Under the pieces are notes generated by a model. It ran no database searches. It was given only the letters and a program-made list of their open reading frames with translations, and was not told the origin of the DNA. DNA of 64,000 nt, taken from Cylindrospermum sp. NIES-4074 (GTDB lineage Bacteria; Cyanobacteriota; Cyanobacteriia; Cyanobacteriales; Nostocaceae). A program made the translations under genes and the position numbers. The DNA lies in NCBI GenBank assembly GCA_003994795.1, contig AP018269.1:4551677-4615676 (forward strand), written 5' to 3'. Below are positions 1 through 53,157 of the stretch, one piece after another (position 1 is the stretch's first letter; each line of letters starts with the position of its first letter).

Positions 1-3000
1 CCAATAATCAGGTCGTCAAAGCCGTCACCGTTGACATCCCCGGCACTGCTGACAGAGTTGCCTGAGAAGTCACCCTCTGTGATGCCGTTAATAGCGAAAC
101 CGTTAACGCCGTTGAGGGTGGAGAGGTTGAGGGTTGGGCCAAAGCCGTTGATGGTGACGTTCACAGTTGCTGTGCTAGTGCCACCGTTGCGATCGCTGAT
201 AGTATAAGCGAAACTGTCGCTGGCAGTGGCTCCCACACCCAAAGATTCAAATTGACCGTTAGGGTTGTAGACAAAACTGCCATTGCTATTGAGGGTAAGG
301 ATTGCACCAGAAGTTAAAGTCACGGAGTTGCCCACAGCCGCAGCATTGCCATTCACCTGTGTCACCGTAAAAACGTCGTCATTCGGGTCACTGTCAGGTG
401 TACTGGGATTGGCAACTAGCACATTCCCACTGAAAACCCTATTCTCATTCGTGCTGAAAGCATCATTGACAGCAACAGGGGGTTGATTAAGAGAAGGACT
501 TACTGCCACTGTCGTCGTTGCCACTGCACTCGTGTTATTGAAAGGTTGCCCGTCATCGACGACAAACTCAATTATTCGGTTGGTGGTGTTGGGAGAGGCA
601 TCTGTATTGTTATAGGTAAGGCTGGCAAGGACTTGTCGGTAATTGGCAATTGTATCGATGCCGCTGAGGGTGAGAATGCCTGTGGTGGCATCGTAAGTAG
701 CGGTGATGTTGCCAATGGCAGTAGCGCCGAGACTTTCGGCTGTGCCATCCAAGAGATTAGTAATGGTGATGGTAGCACCAGCTAGGGTAGCATTGTTGTC
801 CGTCAGGGTGAAGTCGCTATCAACAATCGAGACGGGACTGCCAGTAAAGGTGGTGCTAAAATCAATCCCCAAAAAGTCACTCCTGCCGCCAGTACCGATA
901 TTAGCATCGCCAAACACCACGTAGCTCTGCCCTGATTGGGAGCCGTTGGGGTCGGCATTGGGTGCCCCGATAATCAGGTCGTCGAAGCCGTCGCCGTTGA
1001 TATCCCCAGCACTGCTGACCGATTTGCCTGAGTAGTCACCCGCTGCGATGCCGTTAATAGCAAAGCCGTTAGCGGCGTAGAGGGTCGGACTAAAGCCACT
1101 GCTGCTGCCAAATACCACGTAGCTCCGCCCAGATCCAGAGCCGTTGGGGTCGGCAAGGAATGCCCCGATAATCACGTCGTCGAAACCGTCGCCGTTGACA
1201 TCCCCGGCACTGCTGACAGAGGAGCCTGATTGGTCATATGCGGCGAAGCGGTTGATGGCGAAGCCGTTAGCGCCGTTGAGGGTGGAGAGGTTGAGGGTGG
1301 GGCTAAAGCCACTGCTGCTGCCAAACACCACGTAGCTCTGCCCTGATAAAAAGCCGTTGGGGTCGGCACCAGATGCCCCGATAATCAGGTCGTCGAAGCC
1401 GTCGCCGTTGATATCCCCGGCATTGCTGACAGAGTAGCCTGATCCATCATATGCGGTGATGCCGTTGATGGCGAAGCCGTTAGCGCCGTTGAGGGTGGAG
1501 AGGTTGAGGGTGGAGCTAAAGCCACTGTTGCTGCCAAACACCACGTAGCTCTGCCCTGAATAAGTGCCGTTGGGGTCGGCAAGGAATGCCCCGATAATCA
1601 GGTCGTCGAAGCCATCACCGTTGACATCCCCGGCATTGCTGATAGATTCGCCTAAGAAGTCACCCGCTGCGATGCCGTTAATAGCGAAGCCGTTAGCGCC
1701 GTTGAGGGTGGAGAGGTTGAAGGTGGAGCTAAAGCCACTACTGCTGCCAAACACCACGTAGCTCTGCCCTGAAGAAAAAGAGCCGTTGGGGTCGGCATTG
1801 GGTGCCCCGATAATCAGGTCGTCGAAGCCGTCGCCGTTGACATCCCCTGCACTGCTGACCGATTTGCCTGAGTAGTCACCCTCTGCGATGCCATTGATGG
1901 CGAAGCCATTAGCGCCGTTGAGGGTGGAGAGGTTGAGGGTGGAGCTAAAGCCGCTACTGCTGCCAAACACCACGTAGCTCTGCCCTGAATAAGAGCCGTT
2001 GGGGGAGGCATTGGGTGCCCCGATAATCAGGTCGTCGAAGCCGTCGCCGTTGACATCCCCGGCACTGCTGACAGAGGAGCCTGAGAAGTCACGCTCTGCG
2101 ATGCCGTTAATAGCGAAGCCGTTAGCGCCGTTGAGGCTGGAGGGGTTGAGGATTGGACTAAAGCCACTGCTGCGGCCAAACACCACGTAGGTCTGCCCCG
2201 ATTGGGAGCCGTTGGGGGAGGCATTGGGTGCCCCAATAATCAGGTCGTCGAAGCCGTCGCCATTGATATCCCCAGCGCTGCTCACAGAGGAGCCTAATGA
2301 GTCAAACCCTTCGATGCCATTGATGACAAAGCCACCGAGTTTGTCGAGGTCGAGGTCGAGGACGGGGGCGCGGTTGCCGCCTTTGATGGTGAGATTAACC
2401 GTTGCTGTGCTGATGCCACCATTGCCATCATTGATCGTATAAGTAAAACTATCACTGGCAGTGGCTCCCACACTCAAAGATTCAAATTGACCCTGAGGGT
2501 TGTAGACAAAACTGCCATTGCTATTGAGGGTAAGGATTGCACCAGAAGTTAAAGTAATGGAGTTGCCTACAGCCGCAGCATTGCCATTCACCTGTGTCAC
2601 CGTTAAAGTGTCGTTGTCTGGGTCACTGTCAGGTGTGGTGGGATTGGCAATTAGCACATTCCCACTGAAAACCCTATTCTCATTCGTGCTGAAAGCATCA
2701 TTGACAGCAACGGGGGGTTGATTAGGAGAAGGACTTACTGCCACCGTCGTCCTTGCCACTGAACTCGTGTTACTGAAAGGTTGCCCGTCATCGACCACAA
2801 ACTCAATTACTCGGTTAGTGGCGTTGGGAGAGGCATCTGTATTGTTATAGGTAAGGCTGGCAAGGACTTGTCGGTAATTGGCAATTGTATCGATGCCGCT
2901 GAGGGTGAGAATGCCTGTGGTGGCATTGTAAGTAGCGGTGATGTTGCCAATGGCAGTAGCGGCGAGACTTTCGGATGTGCCATCCAAGAGATTAGTAATG

Positions 3001-6000
3001 GTGATGGTAGCACCAGCTAGGGTAGCTTTGTTGTCCGTCAGGGTGAAGTCGCTATCAACAATCGAGACAGGAGTGCCAGTAAAGGTGGTGCTAAAATCAA
3101 TCCCCACAAAGTTAAAGTTACTGTCGAGCAGTTGGGCGAGGTTAATGCTACCGCCAGCACCGATGTTAGCTTCGCCAAACACCACGTAGCTCTGCCCTAA
3201 TTCGGAGCCGTTGAGGAAGTCACCCGGTGCCCCGATAATCAGGTCGTCGAAGCCATCACCGTTGACATCTCCGGCACTGCTGACAGAAAAGCCTGAGTAG
3301 TCACTCCCTGGGATGGCGTTAATAGCGAAGCCGTTAGCGCCGTTGAGGCTGGAGAGGTTAAGAGTCGGGTTAAAGCCACCACTGCTGCCAAACACCACGT
3401 AGCTCTGCCCTGAATAAGAGGCATTGAATGCCCCGATAATCAGGTCGTCGAAGCCGTCGCCGTTGACATCTCCAGCACTGCTGACAGAGTAGCCTGATCT
3501 GTCACCCTCTGCGATGCCGTTAATAGCGAAGCCGTTAGCGCCGTTGAGGGTGGAGAGGTTGAGGGTCGGGCTAAAGCCACTGCTGCTGCCAAATACCACG
3601 TAGCTCTGCCCTGAAAAAGAGCCGTTGCCGTTGCGGAAGTCACCCGGTGCCCCGATAATCAGGTCGTCGAAGCCGTCACCGTTGACATCCCCGGCACTGC
3701 TGACAGATCTGCCTGAGTAGTCATTCTGTGCGATGCCGTTAATAGCGAAGCCATTAGCGCCGTTGAGAGTGGAGAGGTTGAGGGTTGGGCTAAAGCCACT
3801 GCTTTTGCCAAACACCACGTAGCTCTGCCCAGAACCCGGGCCGTTGGGGTCTGCACCGAATGCTCCGATAATCAGGTCGTCGAAGCCGTCGCCGTTGACA
3901 TCTCCGGCACTGCTGACAGAGAAGCCTGAGATGTCACCCTCTGCGATGCCATTGATGGCGAAGCCGCTAACGCCGTTGAGAGTGGAGAGGTTGAGGGTCG
4001 GACTAAAGCCACTGCTGCTGCCAAACACCACGTAGCTCTGCCCTGAATAAGAGCCGTTGGGGTCGGCAAAGCGTGCCCCGATAATCAGGTCGTCGAAGCC
4101 ATCACCGTTGACATCCCCGGCACTGCTGACAGAGGAGCCTGAGAAGTCACCCTCTGCGATGCCATTGATGACGAAGCCGTTAGCGCCGTTGAGGGTGGAG
4201 AGGTTGAAGGTCGGGCTAAAGCCACTACTGCTGCCAAACACCACATAGCTTTTCCCAGATCGAAAGCCTTTGAGGGAGGCAGAGGCAAAGGGTGCCCCGA
4301 TAATCAGGTCGTCGAAGCCGTCACCGTTAACATCCCCGGCGCTACTGACAGAGGAGGCTGAGTAGTCACCATCTGCGATGCCGTTGATGGCGAAGCCGTT
4401 AGCGCCGTTGAGGGTGGAGAGGTTGAGAGTGGGGCTAAAGCCACTACTGCTGCCAAACACCACGTAGCTCTGCCCAGGTCGAAAGCGGTTGGGGGAGGCA
4501 TATCTTGCCCCAATAATCAGGTCGTCGAAGCCATCGCCGTTGATATCCCCAGCGCTGCTCACAGAGGAGCCTGATTTGTCACCCTCTGCGATGCCATTGA
4601 TGACGAAGCCACCAAGTCCGTTGAGGTCGAGGACGGGGGCGCGGTTGCCAAACACCACGTAGCTCTGCCCTGAACCAGATCTGTTGGGGTCGGCACTGGG
4701 TGCCCCGATAATCAGGTCGTCGAGGCTGTCGCCATTGATATCCCCGGCACTGCTGACAGAGTAGCCTGAATGGTTAGACGCTGCGATGCCGTTAATAGCG
4801 AAGCCGTTAGCGCCGTCGAGGGTGAAGAGGTTGAGGGTCGCGCTAAAGCCACTGTTGCTGCCAAACACCACGTAGCTCTGCCCTGATTGGAAGCTGTTGA
4901 GGGAGACAAAGGGTGCCCCGATAATCAGGTCGTCGAAGCCGTCACCGTTAACATCCCCGGCGCTACTGACAGAGGAGCCTGAGTAGTCACCATCTGCGAT
5001 GCCGTTGATGGCGAAGCCGTTAGCGCCGTTGAGGGTGGAGAGGTTGAGAGTGGGGCTAAAGCCACTACTGCTGCCAAACACCACGTAGCTCTGCCCAGGT
5101 CGAAAGCGGTTGGGGGAGGGATATCTTGCCCCAATAATCAGGTCGTCGAAGCCATCGACGTTGACATCCCCGGCACTGCTAACGGAGGAGCCTGATCCTT
5201 CACCCGCAGCGATGCCATTGATGGCGAAGCCGTTAACGCCGTTGAGGGTGGAGAGGTTGAGGGTGGGGCTAAAGCCACTGCTGCTGCCAAACACCACGTA
5301 GCTCTGCCCTGATGAAGAGCCGTTGGGGGAGGCTAAGGGTGCCCCGATAATCAGGTCGTCGAGGCCGTCACTGTTGACATCTCCGGCACTGCTGACAGAA
5401 AAGCCGGAGTTGTCACCCGCAGCGATGCCGTTAATAGCGAAGCCGTTAGCGCCGTTGAGGGTGGAGAGGTTGAGGGTGGGGCTAAAGCCACTGCTGCTGC
5501 CAAACACCACGTAGCTCCGCCCTGATGAAGAGCCGTTGGGGTCGGCACTGGGTGCCCCGATAATCAGGTCATCGAAGCCGTCGCCGTTGATATCCCCAGC
5601 ACTGCTGACAGAGCAGCCTGAGGAGTCATATACGGCGATGCCGTTAATAGCGAAGCCGTTAGCGCCGTTGAGGGTGGAGAGGTTGAGGGTGGGGCTAAAG
5701 CCACTGCTGCTGCCAAACACCACGTAACTCTGCCCAGAACCCGGGCCGTTGGGGTCGGCACTGGGTGCCCCGATAATCAGGTCGTCGAAGCCATCGCCGT
5801 TGATATCCCCAGCACTGCTGACAGAGAAGCCTGATTGGTTAGACGCTGCGATGCCGTTGATGGCGAAGCCGTTAGCGCCGTTGAGGGTGGAGAGGTTGAG
5901 GGTGGGGCTAAAGCCGCTGCTGCTGCCAAACACCACGTAGCTTTGCCCTGATAGGGAGCCGTTGGGGTCGGCACTGAGTGCCCCGATAATCAGGTCGTCG

Positions 6001-47111: not shown

Positions 47112-50100
47112 ATGCAAGCAGTGTGGGGATTCTGGGAAAAGATTTTAGCTTCTAATTATTATATGCCGCATGGGCAATGCTATCTTTGGCAAACGCCTCT
47201 GGTGGGTTTACATCTAGTTAGTGATGCACTAATTGCGATCGCCTATTTCTCTATTCCGGTAATGCTCATCTACTTTGTGAGTAAGCGAAGTGATATTCCT
47301 TTCTCCAAAGTCTTTGTCTTATTTGGTGCATTTATTGTCCTTTGCGGTACAGGACACCTGCTCGACATTTGGACGCTTTGGCACCCAGACTACTGGGTGT
47401 CAGGCATTGAACGTGCTATCACTGCACTAGTATCTTGCTATACCGCTTTACAACTGGTGGAACTGCTACCGCAATTTCTGGCACTGCGAACGCCAGAACA
47501 GCTAGAAATCATCAATCGGGAATTAGAAAAGCAAGTAGCAGAACGGCAACGAACTGAAGAAACACTGCAAATGATTGTGGCCGGCACTGCTTCTGTAACT
47601 GGAAACGATTTTTTTCCAGTTCTGGCGAAAAATCTGGCAACGGCATTAGATGTTGCTTACGTGATGGTGCTAGAGACGGTTGGCAATTCGCTGCAAACCT
47701 TGCGGAGCCTTGCGATTTGGTCTATCGATCATCTAGCTGAAAACCTAGAATATGAATTGGCGGGCACACCCTGCAAAATAGTTGTTGACGAAAAGCTCTT
47801 GCATTCTTATCCACAAGATTTACAGCCGCTTTTCCCTGATGCTCCGTTGCTCGAAGGTATAGGAGCAGAGAGCTACGTGGGTGTGCCCTTAATCGATAGC
47901 AATCAAAATGTGATCGGTAACCTCTGTATTATCGATGTCAAACCCTTTTTGGCAGACGATCGCACCAAAACACTTTTGAGAGTCTTTGCCGCGCGGGCTT
48001 CTGCTGAACTGCAACGCAAATGGGCAGAGGAGGATAAAAGCCGCGCTTATGAAGACCTGGAATTCCGGGTTGAGGAGCGCACTGCCGAACTTGTGGCTGC
48101 TAATAAAGCCTTGGAAATCGAAAATGCTGAACGAATTGCTACTGAAACGAAAATGAGGGTGATGGCAGAACGGGAAAAGGCCACAAATCGCGTCATCGGG
48201 CAAATGCGTCAGACCCTGAACCTGGAATCAATTTTCAATGCCACAACAGGGGAATTACGGCAAGCTGTGGACTGCGATCGCGTTCTGATTTATCGCTTCC
48301 AACCAGATTGGAGTGGTGAATTAGTTTCTGAGTCTGTAGCTGATGCTTGGAATAATCTGCTTCCCGGACGGGCAAGCGATCGCGAACTCACCAAAGTGGC
48401 TGTAGATCACGACGGCTGTATCACAACTCAACTTGGCAATTCCGAAGCATTGATTCGCGATACCTATTTGCAAGATAACGAAGGGGGTGTTTATCAGCAA
48501 AAACATGGCTATTACTGTGTTGCTGACATCTATGCAGCGGGATTCAATGAATGTTATCTCAATCTTCTAGAACAATTGCAGGCACGGGCTTACATCATCG
48601 CGCCTATTTTCTGTGGTAATCAACTATGGGGCTTGTTGGCAGTTTACCAAAATGACAGTCCACGACATTGGCAAGATGCAGAAATCCGAATTGTCACCCA
48701 AATTGCAAATCAGCTGGGGGTAGCTGTACAACAGGCAGAATTATTTGCCCAAACCCAGCAACAAGCAGAAGAACTGAAACGGGCAAAACAAGCTGCTGAG
48801 GCTGCTAATCAGGCAAAAAGTGAGTTTTTGGCAAATATGAGCCATGAACTTCGCACTCCACTCAATGCCATTCTCGGTTTTACCCAGTTGATGCAGCAGG
48901 ATCGCTCTTTGACTGCTGACCATCAAAGATATACAGAAATCATCAATCAAAGTGGTGAACATCTCCTGGGACTGATTAATGATGTGCTGGAGATGTCCAA
49001 AATTGAAGCCGGACGGCTGACACTATGCGAAATAGAGTTTGATTTGCATAACTTACTGCATAGTTTGGAAGCAATGCTGCAACTAAAAGCTTTATCTAAA
49101 GGCTTGCAACTGAGTTTTATCTGTGATGCTAATGTACCCCAGTGCATCAAAACTGATGAAAACAAACTGCGTCAGGTACTGATTAACCTGCTGGGCAACG
49201 CAATTAAGTTTACTGAAAAGGGGAACATTATCCTGAGAATTAGCAGTCAAAACTCCGAACTCAGCACCATCAACACCCTGTTATTTGAAGTCGAAGACAC
49301 TGGATGTGGTATTGCCCCTGAAGAGATTGGTGATTTATTTAAGGCATTTCAGCAAACAGGAGCCGGACATAAAGCTAAAGAAGGCACAGGTTTAGGGTTG
49401 CGAATTAGCCAGACGTTTGTGCAATTAATGGGTGGTGAAATTACTGTTCAAAGCGAACTAGCTAAAGGCAGTTGTTTCAGGTTTCATATCCAGGCTGCTT
49501 TGGCTGAGTCTGTCCCCGTGTTCAAATCCTCCCCCGTTAATAATGCAGTCAGTATTGCTCCTGGGCAGACATCCTACCGCATTTTGATTGCGGAAGATAA
49601 TGCTGCTAACCGTCTGCTATTGGGAAAAATTTTGAGCCAGTTAGGTTTTGAAATGCAGGAAGCTGAAAATGGGCAAGTGGCGATCGCAATTTGTCAACAA
49701 TGGCGCCCTCACCTCATCTTTATGGATATGCATATGCCAATCATTAATGGCTATGAAGCAGCTCGGCAAATTCGTAATTGGGAACAAACATTAGAGGATG
49801 GGGAATTTCCCACCCCGACGAAAATTATTGCTCTGACAGCAAGTGCCTTTACAGAACAGCGGCAGGAAAGTTTAGATGCAGGTTGTGATGATTTTGTTAG
49901 TAAGCCATTCCGTTGGCAAGAAATTCTGGAAACTCTAGCCAAGCATCTAGGGGTGGAATATCTATATGCAGAAACTTCAGGGAATGGGATTTCCCCAAAC
50001 TCAGAAGCTCACAAACCCAAGGTTCTTGATGCAGCTGCCTTAACTATTATGCCAGCTGCATGGATTACCCAATTACACTTTGCTGCCGCTCAAGGCAACG

Positions 50101-50240
50101 ATACCAGTAGCCTCAATCTCATTGCTCAAATCCCTGCTGAACACAGTTCGCTAATTGCAGCTTTAACGAACTTAATTGAAACCTATAATTTTGACCAGCT
50201 GATGGATCTCACTCAACCACCACTTTCAGAAGATATTTAG
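47112..50240 (+). CDS. Ethylene-receptor-like hybrid histidine kinase with cyanobacteriochrome-like GAF
   Basis: 1042 residues. (1) Residues 20-125: three-helix ethylene-binding domain with Asp38, Cys78 and His82 ([17 protein letters not shown]), the copper/ethylene site of plant ETR1 and Synechocystis Slr1212. (2) GAF about 155-300. (3) coiled coil. (4) second GAF 370-540 with [20 protein letters not shown]; Cys481 is at the bilin-attachment position, followed by Tyr rather than His. (5) kinase: His578 in MSHELRTP, N-box Asn696, G-box GTGLGL. (6) receiver with Asp872 and a 90-residue tail. It should sense ethylene and perhaps light at a membrane and pass phosphate internally. The REC-kinase at 50460 may be its partner. 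Confidence 0.9.
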
Positions 50241-50459
50241 GGTAATATAGGAATCCGGTTGGAATTTTGAAAACTTACTGAGACTTAAATCCATATTCCA
50301 CAAGGCTTTTATTTTAAAACTCTGTCAGAAATAAAATAGGATTCCCATATCACAGTCATATTTGATTCATTAACTAACTTGTTTAGGCAATGAGGCAATA
50401 GGGTTCTAGAAGATTTAAGAATAGGTCATTTTTTCACAACCAAATAGGAGTCCTATATA

Positions 50460-51749
50460 ATGAATATGTATTTACAAGATAGCGCATTTGTAGCGGACAT
50501 TCTTATCGTTGATGACAAACTAGAAAATATTCGTTTTCTATCAGATTTTTTATCAAAACAAAATTATCAAGTCCGCAAAGCAATCAATGGACAGGCAGCA
50601 TTAAAAGCTGTTAAGACACTTCCACCCGATCTGATTCTGCTAGATATCAATATGCCAGGCATGGGAGGTTACGAAGTCTGCAATTTTTTAAAAAATGATC
50701 CAGAAACATGTTCAATTCCTGTGATTTTCTTAAGTGCTGGTAGTGAAGTTACTGATAAACTTCAAGCATTTCAAGTTGGAGGTATTGACTACATTACTAA
50801 ACCATTTCATTTAGAAGAAATTTTAGTGAGAGTGCAAACTCAGTTAAAGATTCAACACTTACAAAAACAGCTACAATCCCGCAATGAGCAACTACAAAAT
50901 ACGCTACTTACATTACAAAATACTCAAGCTGAACTCATTCAAAAAGAAAAGCTAGTTAATGCGGGTCGAATTACAGCTGGTATTTCTCATGAAATTAACA
51001 ACCCTCTAAGCTTTATTTTTTGCAACTTGGAACCTGCATCTGAATATAGCCGAAATCTAATTAGCCTAATTCAACTTTATCAAAAAGCATTTCCCGATGC
51101 AACTCCAGAAATTAGAAATTTTCTGGAAGAGATTGATATAGATTTCCTAATTCCCGATTTCACAAGAATTATTCACTCTCTCCGCACGGGAGCCGAACGT
51201 ATTCGTTCAGTTGTTCTGGCTCTGCATATTTTTTCTCGTCTTGATGAGTCAGGTATCAAACCGATTAATATGCATGAAAGTATTGATAGCGTCCTCATGA
51301 TCCTACATCATCAATTTATGTTAAAAAATGGCTCAGTCAGCATTTCTCTTTTAAAAAAATATGAATATCTACCAACATTTGTGGGTTATGCTAATTCACT
51401 GAATCAAGCTTTGCTGAATCTTTTACAAAATTCTATTGATGCACTTGAAATAAAAGTAGATTCAGTTATTGATAGTTCATTTCAACCCACAATCTGGATA
51501 AGTACAGAAACTACGGAAGAAAAGAAAATAATCATCACTATTAAAGACAACGGTATAGGAATTTCTGAAGAGGTTAAAGCTCATTTATTTGAACCATTTT
51601 TTACTACAAAATCTATTGGCAAAGGAGTTGGATTGGGTTTATATACTACCTACCAAATAATTACTGAGCTTCACAAAGGTACTTTGATTTATCATGACTG
51701 CCCTGAAGGAGGTTCGGAATTTATCATTGAAATTCCTACAAGTCGTTAG
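50460..51749 (+). CDS. Response regulator / histidine kinase hybrid
   Basis: 429 residues: N-terminal receiver (ADILIVDDKLENIRFLSDFL, phosphoacceptor Asp62 in ILLDINMPGMGG, Lys in YITKPF), a coiled-coil linker, and a kinase with His177 in GISHEINNPLSF, N-box NQALLNLLQNSIDAL and G-boxes DNGIGISEE and GKGVGLGLYTTY. No sensory domain or membrane helix, so it is a soluble relay kinase. An AGGAG site precedes the ATG. It starts 219 bases after the ethylene-receptor-like kinase on the same strand, suggesting one signalling unit. Confidence 0.92.
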   Translation: MNMYLQDSAFVADILIVDDKLENIRFLSDFLSKQNYQVRKAINGQAALKAVKTLPPDLILLDINMPGMGGYEVCNFLKNDPETCSIPVIFLSAGSEVTDKLQAFQVGGIDYITKPFHLEEILVRVQTQLKIQHLQKQLQSRNEQLQNTLLTLQNTQAELIQKEKLVNAGRITAGISHEINNPLSFIFCNLEPASEYSRNLISLIQLYQKAFPDATPEIRNFLEEIDIDFLIPDFTRIIHSLRTGAERIRSVVLALHIFSRLDESGIKPINMHESIDSVLMILHHQFMLKNGSVSISLLKKYEYLPTFVGYANSLNQALLNLLQNSIDALEIKVDSVIDSSFQPTIWISTETTEEKKIIITIKDNGIGISEEVKAHLFEPFFTTKSIGKGVGLGLYTTYQIITELHKGTLIYHDCPEGGSEFIIEIPTSR

Positions 51750-52225: not shown

Positions 52226-52747
52226 TTAATTAGAATGACGGAGTATAGTTCTTACTTCCATCAAAATCTGTCCGAGGCGATTTTTACCACTACCATCTTC
52301 TCCACAACCCCAGTAATAGTCATGTGATGTAGTTTCTATAAGTAGTTGATTACCAGTTGAGAGCAGAATATCTCGAATATCTGCATGGTTCTGGAATTTA
52401 GCTAAAACTGCTTTGTACATAAATTCATCTTTGACTTGCCTCCAATCTGAACGAAGAGGAAGGGTGCGATCGCCACCGAGATTTGCTGCTTCTAATGGTG
52501 TTTTCGTCTGCTGCACTTTCTCAAAATAAGGTGTGCCTACAAACTTTTGTGCTTGAAAATAGTGTTCACTAGTTTGCCAATATAAGTTATCCAATCTAAA
52601 ATCATGTGCTGAGAAGTTGCAAAAGCAACCGTAGGGAATTTCATCAGCAAAACAAAAGTAAATTGTTTTTCCTGGCAGAATCAAAAACTCTGTCTTTGAT
52701 TCTGGAGCTAGTTGTTCTAAATTTTGAAGCTGGGAGTTGTCTTTCAT
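52226..52747 (-). CDS. NADAR (YbiA-like) family protein
   Basis: 173 residues from ATG 52747 (TTG at 52759 less likely). The NADAR domain fills residues 25-170: FCNFSAHDFRLDNLYWQTSE, HYFQAQKF, NLGGDRTLPLRSDW and the end motif YYWGCGEDGSGKNRLGQILM. The E. coli relative YbiA is an N-glycosidase that removes damaged riboflavin intermediates; other NADAR proteins cut ADP-ribose from nucleic acid. Either role is possible here; no riboflavin or ADP-ribosylation gene is adjacent. Confidence 0.92.
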   Translation of the reverse strand: MKDNSQLQNLEQLAPESKTEFLILPGKTIYFCFADEIPYGCFCNFSAHDFRLDNLYWQTSEHYFQAQKFVGTPYFEKVQQTKTPLEAANLGGDRTLPLRSDWRQVKDEFMYKAVLAKFQNHADIRDILLSTGNQLLIETTSHDYYWGCGEDGSGKNRLGQILMEVRTILRHSN

Positions 52748-53157
52748 GAATTTTACCAATATTTAAGATGTTTGGAAATTACGGAAGAAGTATCAGTGTT
52801 AGTGAATGGATTTCATCAATTTCTCCTTATTTTCTCAGTCTCAGAGCAAGGATGCAATACCAGATAAGACAGTTAAGAAAGTTAAGAATTTTAATAAAAA
52901 AGCAGGTTATTCATGTGCGATCAACAGATGACTCCTTGTAAGCATTCAGCTATCAGCGGTCAGCAGTCAGCGTTCGACGCTCGCTCACGCCGTAAGCGCA
53001 AAGCGCAGGCTTGTCTGCGACACGCTCCGCGAACCGCCAACGCGTAGCGTTCCGCAGGAAAGTCTAAAACCCGGTTTTAGACTGAGTTTAAGGGGATAGT
53101 GAGAATGCTCATAAATTCTTTAAGCTTGCTGATGGCTTGAAGCTACAAGCTGAATGC
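52748..53157. other. Repeat-rich spacer
   Basis: AGCATTCAGCTATCAGCGGT-type sequence and AACGCGTAGCGTTCCGCAGG repeats fill 52935-53058, and GTCTAAAACCCGGTTTTAGA (53062-53082 with one more C) is a perfect palindrome. All look like dispersed Nostoc repeats. Confidence 0.65.

Follow-up and report, generated by a model that had tools for sequence, protein, structure and literature searches.

We analysed a 64,000-nucleotide window of the Cylindrospermum sp. NIES-4074 genome that carries a two-gene signalling system, namely a hybrid histidine kinase with an ETR1-type membrane domain (hereafter the receptor) and, 219 base pairs further on, a gene for a 429-residue REC-kinase (Table 1). This order had been read in an initial annotation made from the DNA letters, and the open reading frames (ORFs) and Pfam domains agree with it. 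The receptor has the acceptor histidine H578, the N and G boxes and the receiver aspartate D872 of a hybrid histidine kinase, and its ETR1_N domain scores 144 bits against a Pfam cut-off of 27. In the 429-residue protein, Pfam matches REC and HATPase_c, and the HisKA match falls below threshold (20.6 bits vs 26.9); the Pfam scan gave no membrane-domain match for this protein, which may be soluble. From comparison with its relatives, the receptor is likely a membrane receptor for both ethylene and near-ultraviolet (near-UV) or violet light with a phosphorelay output, and its photosensory domain (GAF2) would belong to a cyanobacteriochrome lineage marked by a second cysteine in an insertion loop (the insert Cys).

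Table 1. Features of the receptor and REC-kinase genes, by position in the window
Feature	Position	Strand	Basis or detail
Receptor hybrid kinase, 1042 residues	47112..50240	+	ORF; Pfam domains; 17 orthologues
Receptor layout: ETR1_N - GAF1 - insert-Cys/Cys-Tyr GAF2 - HisKA - HATPase - REC - C-terminal tail	47112..50240	+	
ETR1_N, membrane, predicted ethylene-binding; residues 30-125	47199..47486	+	PF25487, E 1.8e-42
Ethylene-site codons D38, C78, H82	47223-47225, 47343-47345, 47355-47357	+	
GAF1, residues about 146-300	47547..48011	+	Pfam GAF gives two stretches; GAF1 profile matches many relatives
GAF2, residues 349-545, predicted dual-Cys near-UV/violet cyanobacteriochrome	48156..48746	+	PDB sequence matches; UG2 identity; tree
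Insert Cys436, 14 residues ahead of Asp450	48417..48419	+	17/17 orthologues; 73/74 ETR1_N+GAF2-type proteins
GAF2 Cys481-Tyr482	48552-48557	+	Motif D450-T-Y-L453 in same domain
HisKA, phospho-acceptor His578 (48843-48845)	48813..49013	+	PF00512; His in 17/17 orthologues
HATPase_c	49152..49496	+	PF02518; N, G1, G2 motifs located
C-terminal receiver, phospho-acceptor Asp872 (49725-49727)	49581..49937	+	PF00072; Asp in 17/17 orthologues
REC-HisKA-HATPase protein, 429 residues, Asp62 and His177, probable relay partner	50460..51749	+	Pfam; motifs

The seven-residue ethylene site of ETR1 is complete in the receptor (D38, Y45, I48, P49, I75, C78 and H82) at a constant offset of +13; the initial annotation had named Asp38, Cys78 and His82, all three correctly, and the other four positions are present as well. 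Y32 of ETR1 is what we take to be the seventh residue of the site. The ETR1 residues D25, I35, P36, I62, C65 and H69 are named for ethylene binding in the available portions of the literature; none of the binding-residue names is present in PMC10968091. Our orthologue set comprised 17 receptors, the window's own included, from 145 genomes of the family, of which 16 matched over nearly the whole length and that in locus L029 over residues 10-712 only. All seven site residues are invariant in it, except that D38 is Asn in L028. A wider set comprised 74 proteins that combine ETR1_N with a GAF2-type GAF, obtained mainly with a query containing both domains (the best 80 of 269 relatives, in 79 loci), so that its members are mutually related and query-selected; here D38 is kept in 63 of 69 aligned proteins, C78 in 72/74 and H82 in 71/74. 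Mutating C65 or D25 abolishes ethylene binding by ETR1, and K91 has been linked to receptor output (PMC11819568, available text); the counterpart of K91 is probably Arg101, which is invariant in the 17 orthologues. The L028 receptor has Asn at position 38 yet keeps the photosensor cysteines, and together with the six of 69 rows substituted at this position it is a candidate light-only receptor.

The nearest PDB sequences to GAF2 are bilin-binding GAF domains (best 5dfx, E 6.6e-48). The initial annotation had noticed Tyr rather than His after Cys481 and a second cysteine, Cys436, close by, and C436, C481 and Y482 recur in 17/17 orthologues. In the 74-protein set, the insert Cys, the motif Asp and the motif Tyr are each found in 73 proteins, and the canonical Cys and the Tyr that follows it in 74. 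The conservation of C436, C481 and Y482 is, on these alignments, far above chance. We also compared 72 GAFs from loci collected by similarity to GAF2 itself. Fifty-four carry the insertion-loop Cys, 52 of them with Cys-Tyr, one with Thr-Tyr and one with Asn-Tyr; the insert Cys occurs in 0/11 Cys-His GAFs, and a single Cys-Tyr GAF is without it. Cys436 and the Cys-Tyr pair therefore go together (52/54 vs 0/11). Because the subfamily to which GAF2 belongs combines the insert Cys, D-T-Y-L and Cys-Tyr, Tyr482 is, as judged from these relatives, their usual state rather than a defect. The CXXR/K motif is unmatched in GAF2 (C-I-T-T at C436); this motif of the insert Cys is called poorly conserved in the available text of PMC5240096. 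In L085, L092 and L245 the canonical Cys is replaced by Thr, Asn and Ala, with the Tyr and the insert Cys retained.

Two familiar classes were considered for GAF2 and rejected. An ordinary red/green (XRG) cyanobacteriochrome is the class of the best PDB matches, but GAF2 has Cys-Tyr, no Trp and a long insert, its insert region spanning 36 residues vs 13 in six red/green GAFs of the same genome. The DXCF class was set aside since D-T-Y-L stands where the Cys of D-X-C-F is expected. As a precedent for Tyr after the canonical Cys, PMC7504144 was likewise dropped, as the Tyr in the part of that paper at hand is at another position. Loci L044 and L045 of the same genome encode multi-GAF proteins with Cys-His, red/green-type cyanobacteriochrome domains.

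UG1 (Mbr3854g4) and UG2 (Mbl3738g2) are insert-Cys near-UV/green cyanobacteriochromes that bind phycocyanobilin (PCB), the insert Cys forming a second, light-labile bilin bond (PMC5240096). We searched 239 ORFs of at least 650 residues in 220 loci for the seven published UG2 residues (L525, Y537, C569, D583, Y585, L586 and L622; PMC5240096) at their absolute numbering, letting the start codon float over ATG, GTG and TTG within the first 300 residues. All seven fit in eight ORFs, every one an ETR1_N protein, and at most three of seven in the other 231; the best start was the first Met in four named loci and in L122 and L124. These eight ORFs come from five genomes of one genus-level group (L073, L124 and L142 from one genome, L075 and L122 from another), including Geitlerinema sp. 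P-1104, Phormidium willei BDU 130791 and two Phormidium metagenome-assembled genomes. The UG2 source strain IPPAS B-353 (Microcoleus) is Sodalinema gerasimenkoae in NCBI, and, to judge by the identity of these proteins, P-1104 and P. willei are probably members of its group, although NCBI files them elsewhere. The seven UG1 residues fit the L241 protein of the P-1104 genome if the second residue of the ORF, a Met, is the start. Both traced proteins have Tyr directly after the canonical Cys, and since these are PCB-binding proteins the suggestion of the initial annotation that GAF2 may sense light gains support.

The UG2-traced protein begins with ETR1_N and has a GAF1 in L122, L124, L143 and L144; in L145, where part of ETR1_N is masked as N, Pfam finds PAS, GAF, HisKA, HATPase and REC. 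The order of the UG2 parent is, on these traced proteins, ETR1_N - GAF1 - PAS - GAF - histidine kinase - REC, that is, of the ethylene-receptor type. The traced UG2 domain is 57% identical to GAF2, the C436-D450 spacing of 14 residues equals that of C569-D583 in UG2, and Leu489 of GAF2 occupies the position of UG2 Leu622; D-T-Y-L is also the motif of UG1 (PMC5240096). GeiEtr2 of Geitlerinema (now Baaleninema) PCC 7105 could be assigned to the ORF in L242, as the published coordinates (3147733-3150810) agree and the published forward primer encodes its first residues. Its GAF is of the insert-Cys/Cys-Tyr type, 58% identical to GAF2, and has the Tyr and Leu of UG2 at the two tuning positions. 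In the available part of PMC6682694 the layout of GeiEtr2 is likened to that of SynEtr1 and no insert-Cys site is identified, and in that of PMC5240096 the word 'ethylene' occurs once only, within a reference. No statement linking UG2 to an ethylene domain was found in searches of a library of Creative Commons (CC)-licensed papers; prior notice is possible, for example in the original description of Mbl3738. Mbl3738 was reportedly first described in a 2015 paper.

In a tree computed without the insert and the columns of residues 481-482, GAF2 falls into a 37-row insert-Cys set with UG2 and GeiEtr2, and the insert-Cys label changes three times on this tree vs a shuffled mean of 18.4. In L123 (G202:C1:2539500-2547500), a UG2-type receptor gene is broken in two: one frame encodes ETR1_N-GAF1 and the other GAF-kinase-receiver, with unrelated sequence resembling an insertion where they meet.

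We propose that the receptor would act as a membrane dimer that reads two signals. The three-helix ETR1_N would bind ethylene via Cu(I) on Cys78 and His82, positioned by Asp38, and the cytoplasmic GAF2 would bind phycocyanobilin at Cys481. In darkness the insertion-loop residue Cys436 would also be linked to the bilin, through a second and labile bond, giving a resting state that absorbs near-UV or violet light; light would flip the bilin and break this bond, leaving a green-to-orange-absorbing form. Both inputs would meet at His578, from which phosphate may pass to Asp872 and on to the adjacent REC-kinase (Asp62/His177) or a different relay. The bilin chemistry suggested here is modelled on the traced relatives UG1 and UG2, and ethylene/Cu(I) binding, dimerisation and phosphotransfer would follow what is known of the families. 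Residue 404 of GAF2 is Leu, where UG2 has Tyr and UG1 Phe, and is Phe in three of the 17 orthologues. Changing this beta-2 residue to Val red-shifts both states, at Tyr537 in UG2 and at Phe684 in UG1 when combined with a helix residue, and the single F684V change in UG1 fails normal conversion (PMC5240096). Given Leu404, we predict that the photocycle of GAF2 is more violet/orange than near-UV/green.

An orthologue of the REC-kinase lies downstream of the receptor in 16/16 other orthologues (in L021 truncated at the edge of the locus), and in several of them a receiver-only or REC-GGDEF-EAL gene stands between the two; the GGDEF and EAL motifs were present in 6/6 of these middle genes checked. 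The window's pair has no REC-GGDEF-EAL gene, that is, no cyclic di-GMP (c-di-GMP) gene. A different output from that of Slr1212 of Synechocystis had been anticipated in the initial annotation, and these neighbours, together with the REC-GGDEF-EAL genes of relatives, are in keeping with it. By hand count, within 4.5 kilobases (kb) downstream of the 74 ETR1_N+GAF2-type proteins, a REC-GGDEF-EAL gene was found for 20, a REC-kinase of this type for 29 and both for 6; 12 had only a looser relative of either partner and 19 had neither, and L147 and L185 have almost no downstream sequence. In a neighbour control, from which the window and L056-L062 were excluded and ORFs with less than 2 kb downstream were dropped, a partner lay within 2.6 kb of 36/63 genes with both ETR1_N and the photosensor, of 7/13 GAF2-type proteins lacking ETR1_N, and of 1/26 ETR1_N proteins lacking a GAF2-type GAF. 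The single protein in this last group comes from the split gene in L123, of which it is the first half; the other half is among the seven, so that one half is counted in the 26 and the other in the 13. Because of 36/63 and 7/13 vs 1/26, the output genes belong, on these counts, to the photosensor-kinase-receiver module, and the ethylene domain has been set onto it. We had considered the partner genes as a mark of an ethylene pathway, a reading that the control weakened (1/26 without a GAF2-type GAF).

The catalytic half of the REC-kinase is 43% identical to kinases that other loci of this genome (L010, L013) encode as direct fusions with ETR1_N. In Cylindrospermum FACHB-282, a 477-residue ETR1_N kinase lies directly downstream of the pair (L057 3459-4889, minus strand; L175 11881-13311, plus strand), and its kinase part resembles the protein encoded from 50460. 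An ethylene link for the partner is thus still plausible, and the REC-kinase is the probable relay partner of the receptor. Since the same module adjoins a REC-GGDEF-EAL gene in relatives, the ancestral output was probably c-di-GMP control, of motility vs sessility.

Several observations weigh against a receptor for both signals. D38 is Asn or Ala in 6/69 relatives, so ethylene sensing may be lost in some receptors, and the canonical Cys is absent from two of the 54 insert-Cys GAFs (L085, L092) and from one in L245, so that the usual mode of bilin binding is closed to some members. The AlphaFold model of GAF2 is weak (mean predicted local distance difference test score, pLDDT, 57.3; domain residues 67-131 below 50 and the insert unresolved), and the Foldseek list, which fits a bilin-binding GAF, rests on this model. 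The trace to UG2 follows residue numbers and not the IPPAS B-353 sequence itself. Support for the 37-row set (81/93) is below the starred level, and two of its rows have no canonical Cys; UG1 lies outside it, where, apart from its own orthologue, Cys-His GAFs are closest to it, so the tree does not place UG1 and UG2 in one clade. The available part of PMC6682694 contains 'near-UV' only inside a reference title. Neither partner is found for 27/63 genes in the control, and as the partners track the photosensor module rather than ETR1_N, the coupling of ethylene to output would be less direct.

Some of this evidence would also suit a receptor for ethylene only, in which GAF2 is a bilin-less cyanobacteriochrome relic that functions in dimerisation or as a linker. 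The losses of the canonical Cys in L085, L092 and L245 point that way, as does the lack in GAF2 of the Trp found two residues before the motif Asp in most red/green-class GAFs; we nevertheless consider it rather unlikely, because the five photosensor residues are kept in 73, 73, 73, 74 and 74 of 74 proteins and because the trace of the PCB-binding UG2 leads to this subfamily and this architecture. The converse, a photosensor whose ETR1_N is a membrane anchor with no ethylene role in this lineage, seems quite unlikely, given that the window protein and its 16 orthologues retain all seven site residues, bar one D38N, and that PCC 7105 cells bind ethylene (PMC6682694), although that species has two ETR1_N genes; in its favour are the D38 substitutions and the fact that partners follow the photosensor module with or without ETR1_N (7/13; 1/26). 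Cysteines 436, 469 and 481 of GAF2 lie close in sequence, and Cys469 is frequent (16/17 orthologues, 44/74 ETR1_N+GAF2-type proteins), as a thiol/disulfide redox switch in place of a bilin site might have it. However, Cys469 is variable, in contrast to the nearly constant pair of bilin-type cysteines and DTYL, and UG1 and UG2 are bilin proteins, which makes such a switch highly improbable. We therefore favour a receptor that senses ethylene as well as light.

Arabidopsis ETR1 shares the ethylene-site residues with the receptor and is likewise built, from its N-terminus, of an ethylene domain, a GAF, a kinase and a receiver; it is not known to contain a bilin-type GAF. The initial annotation had named Slr1212 as a relative, and the pairing of ethylene with short-wave sensing holds, but the type of GAF does not, as GAF2 is of the insert-Cys type and the GAF of Slr1212/UirS is, we presume, DXCF. 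By its published description, as far as available to us, SynEtr1/UirS/PixA (Slr1212) of Synechocystis PCC 6803 likewise joins an ethylene domain, a dual-Cys near-UV/green cyanobacteriochrome and a histidine kinase, with phycoviolobilin reported as its dual-linked chromophore and UirR/LsiR as its signalling route; the window protein differs in the insertion-loop position of its second Cys, its receiver and its REC-kinase neighbour. UG2 resembles GAF2 in the insert Cys 14 residues before Asp, the motif Tyr and Leu, the helix Leu and, in the traced protein, Cys-Tyr and ETR1_N; in contrast, the window receptor has no PAS, has Leu404 where UG2 has Tyr537, and is followed by a REC-kinase rather than a REC-GGDEF-EAL gene. 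GeiEtr2 shares ETR1_N, the insert-Cys/Cys-Tyr GAF, the histidine kinase and REC, but has a PAS, no GAF1 and a REC-GGDEF-EAL neighbour. The red/green AnPixJg2, NpR6012g4 and Slr1393g3 share the GAF fold, canonical Cys and motif Asp with GAF2, whereas their Cys-His, Trp two residues before Asp and lack of an insert are all foreign to it.

The nearest larger ORFs on either side of the pair are on the opposite strand. Upstream are a 165-residue ORF with no NCBIfam match and an MscS-like channel gene; downstream, at 52226-52759 on the minus strand, lies a gene of the NADAR / riboflavin N-glycosidase family (TIGR02464, 138.9 bits) that also matches a NADAR anti-phage model below its cut-off. A scan of the region for promoters and terminators found sites to be rarer than in shuffled sequence (10 vs 14.2; 3 vs 5.3) and was set aside. 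A promoter-like TTCACA-17-TATAAT (11/12 matches; 50433-50461, plus strand) overlaps the start codon of the REC-kinase gene. The 7.7 Mb host genome has five ETR1_N matches. In L047, a 149-residue ETR1_N frame (1348-1794) overlaps a 554-residue kinase frame (1766-3427) on the minus strand of that locus (G000:C1 about 1665000-1667100); the frames differ in phase and may represent either two genes or a single ETR1_N kinase with a frameshift.

ETR1_N occurs in 71/292 genomes of the phylum, and ETR1_N and a GAF2-type GAF share one ORF in at least 19 of these 71, a lower bound from comparing the listed matches by hand. The pairing is found in seven genomes of the family (G000, G028, G040, G041, G055, G067 and G080) and in 12 outside it (G146, G152, G155, G168, G197, G246, G255, G293, G295, G327, G333 and G401). 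Other ETR1_N proteins carry DXCF-like GAFs (L137-L139, L247, L248 and L253), so two dual-Cys lineages appear to sit on ethylene domains. Tentatively, and with more doubt than confidence, we suggest that the ethylene sensor has been joined at least twice to dual-Cys photosensors, of the DXCF type in UirS and of the insert-Cys type here, in the UG2 parent and in GeiEtr2, giving a coincidence detector of near-UV light and ethylene that sets c-di-GMP-controlled settlement. Photochemical reactions of dissolved organic carbon yield ethylene or other alkenes. If the ethylene sensor was indeed joined twice, UG2, known only as a photosensor, would be half of an ethylene receptor.

What began as a guess about an odd Cys-Tyr site has thus become a specific test on GAF2, and a cheap one because the photochemistry of a traced relative is already published. 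The pairing is also tied to a c-di-GMP gene by conserved neighbourhood, and ethylene physiology has already been studied in Baaleninema PCC 7105. In those parts of the literature surveyed, SynEtr1/UirS is the only receptor described for both ethylene and light; the present receptor and its relatives would make the pairing of the two signals a recurrent cyanobacterial design.

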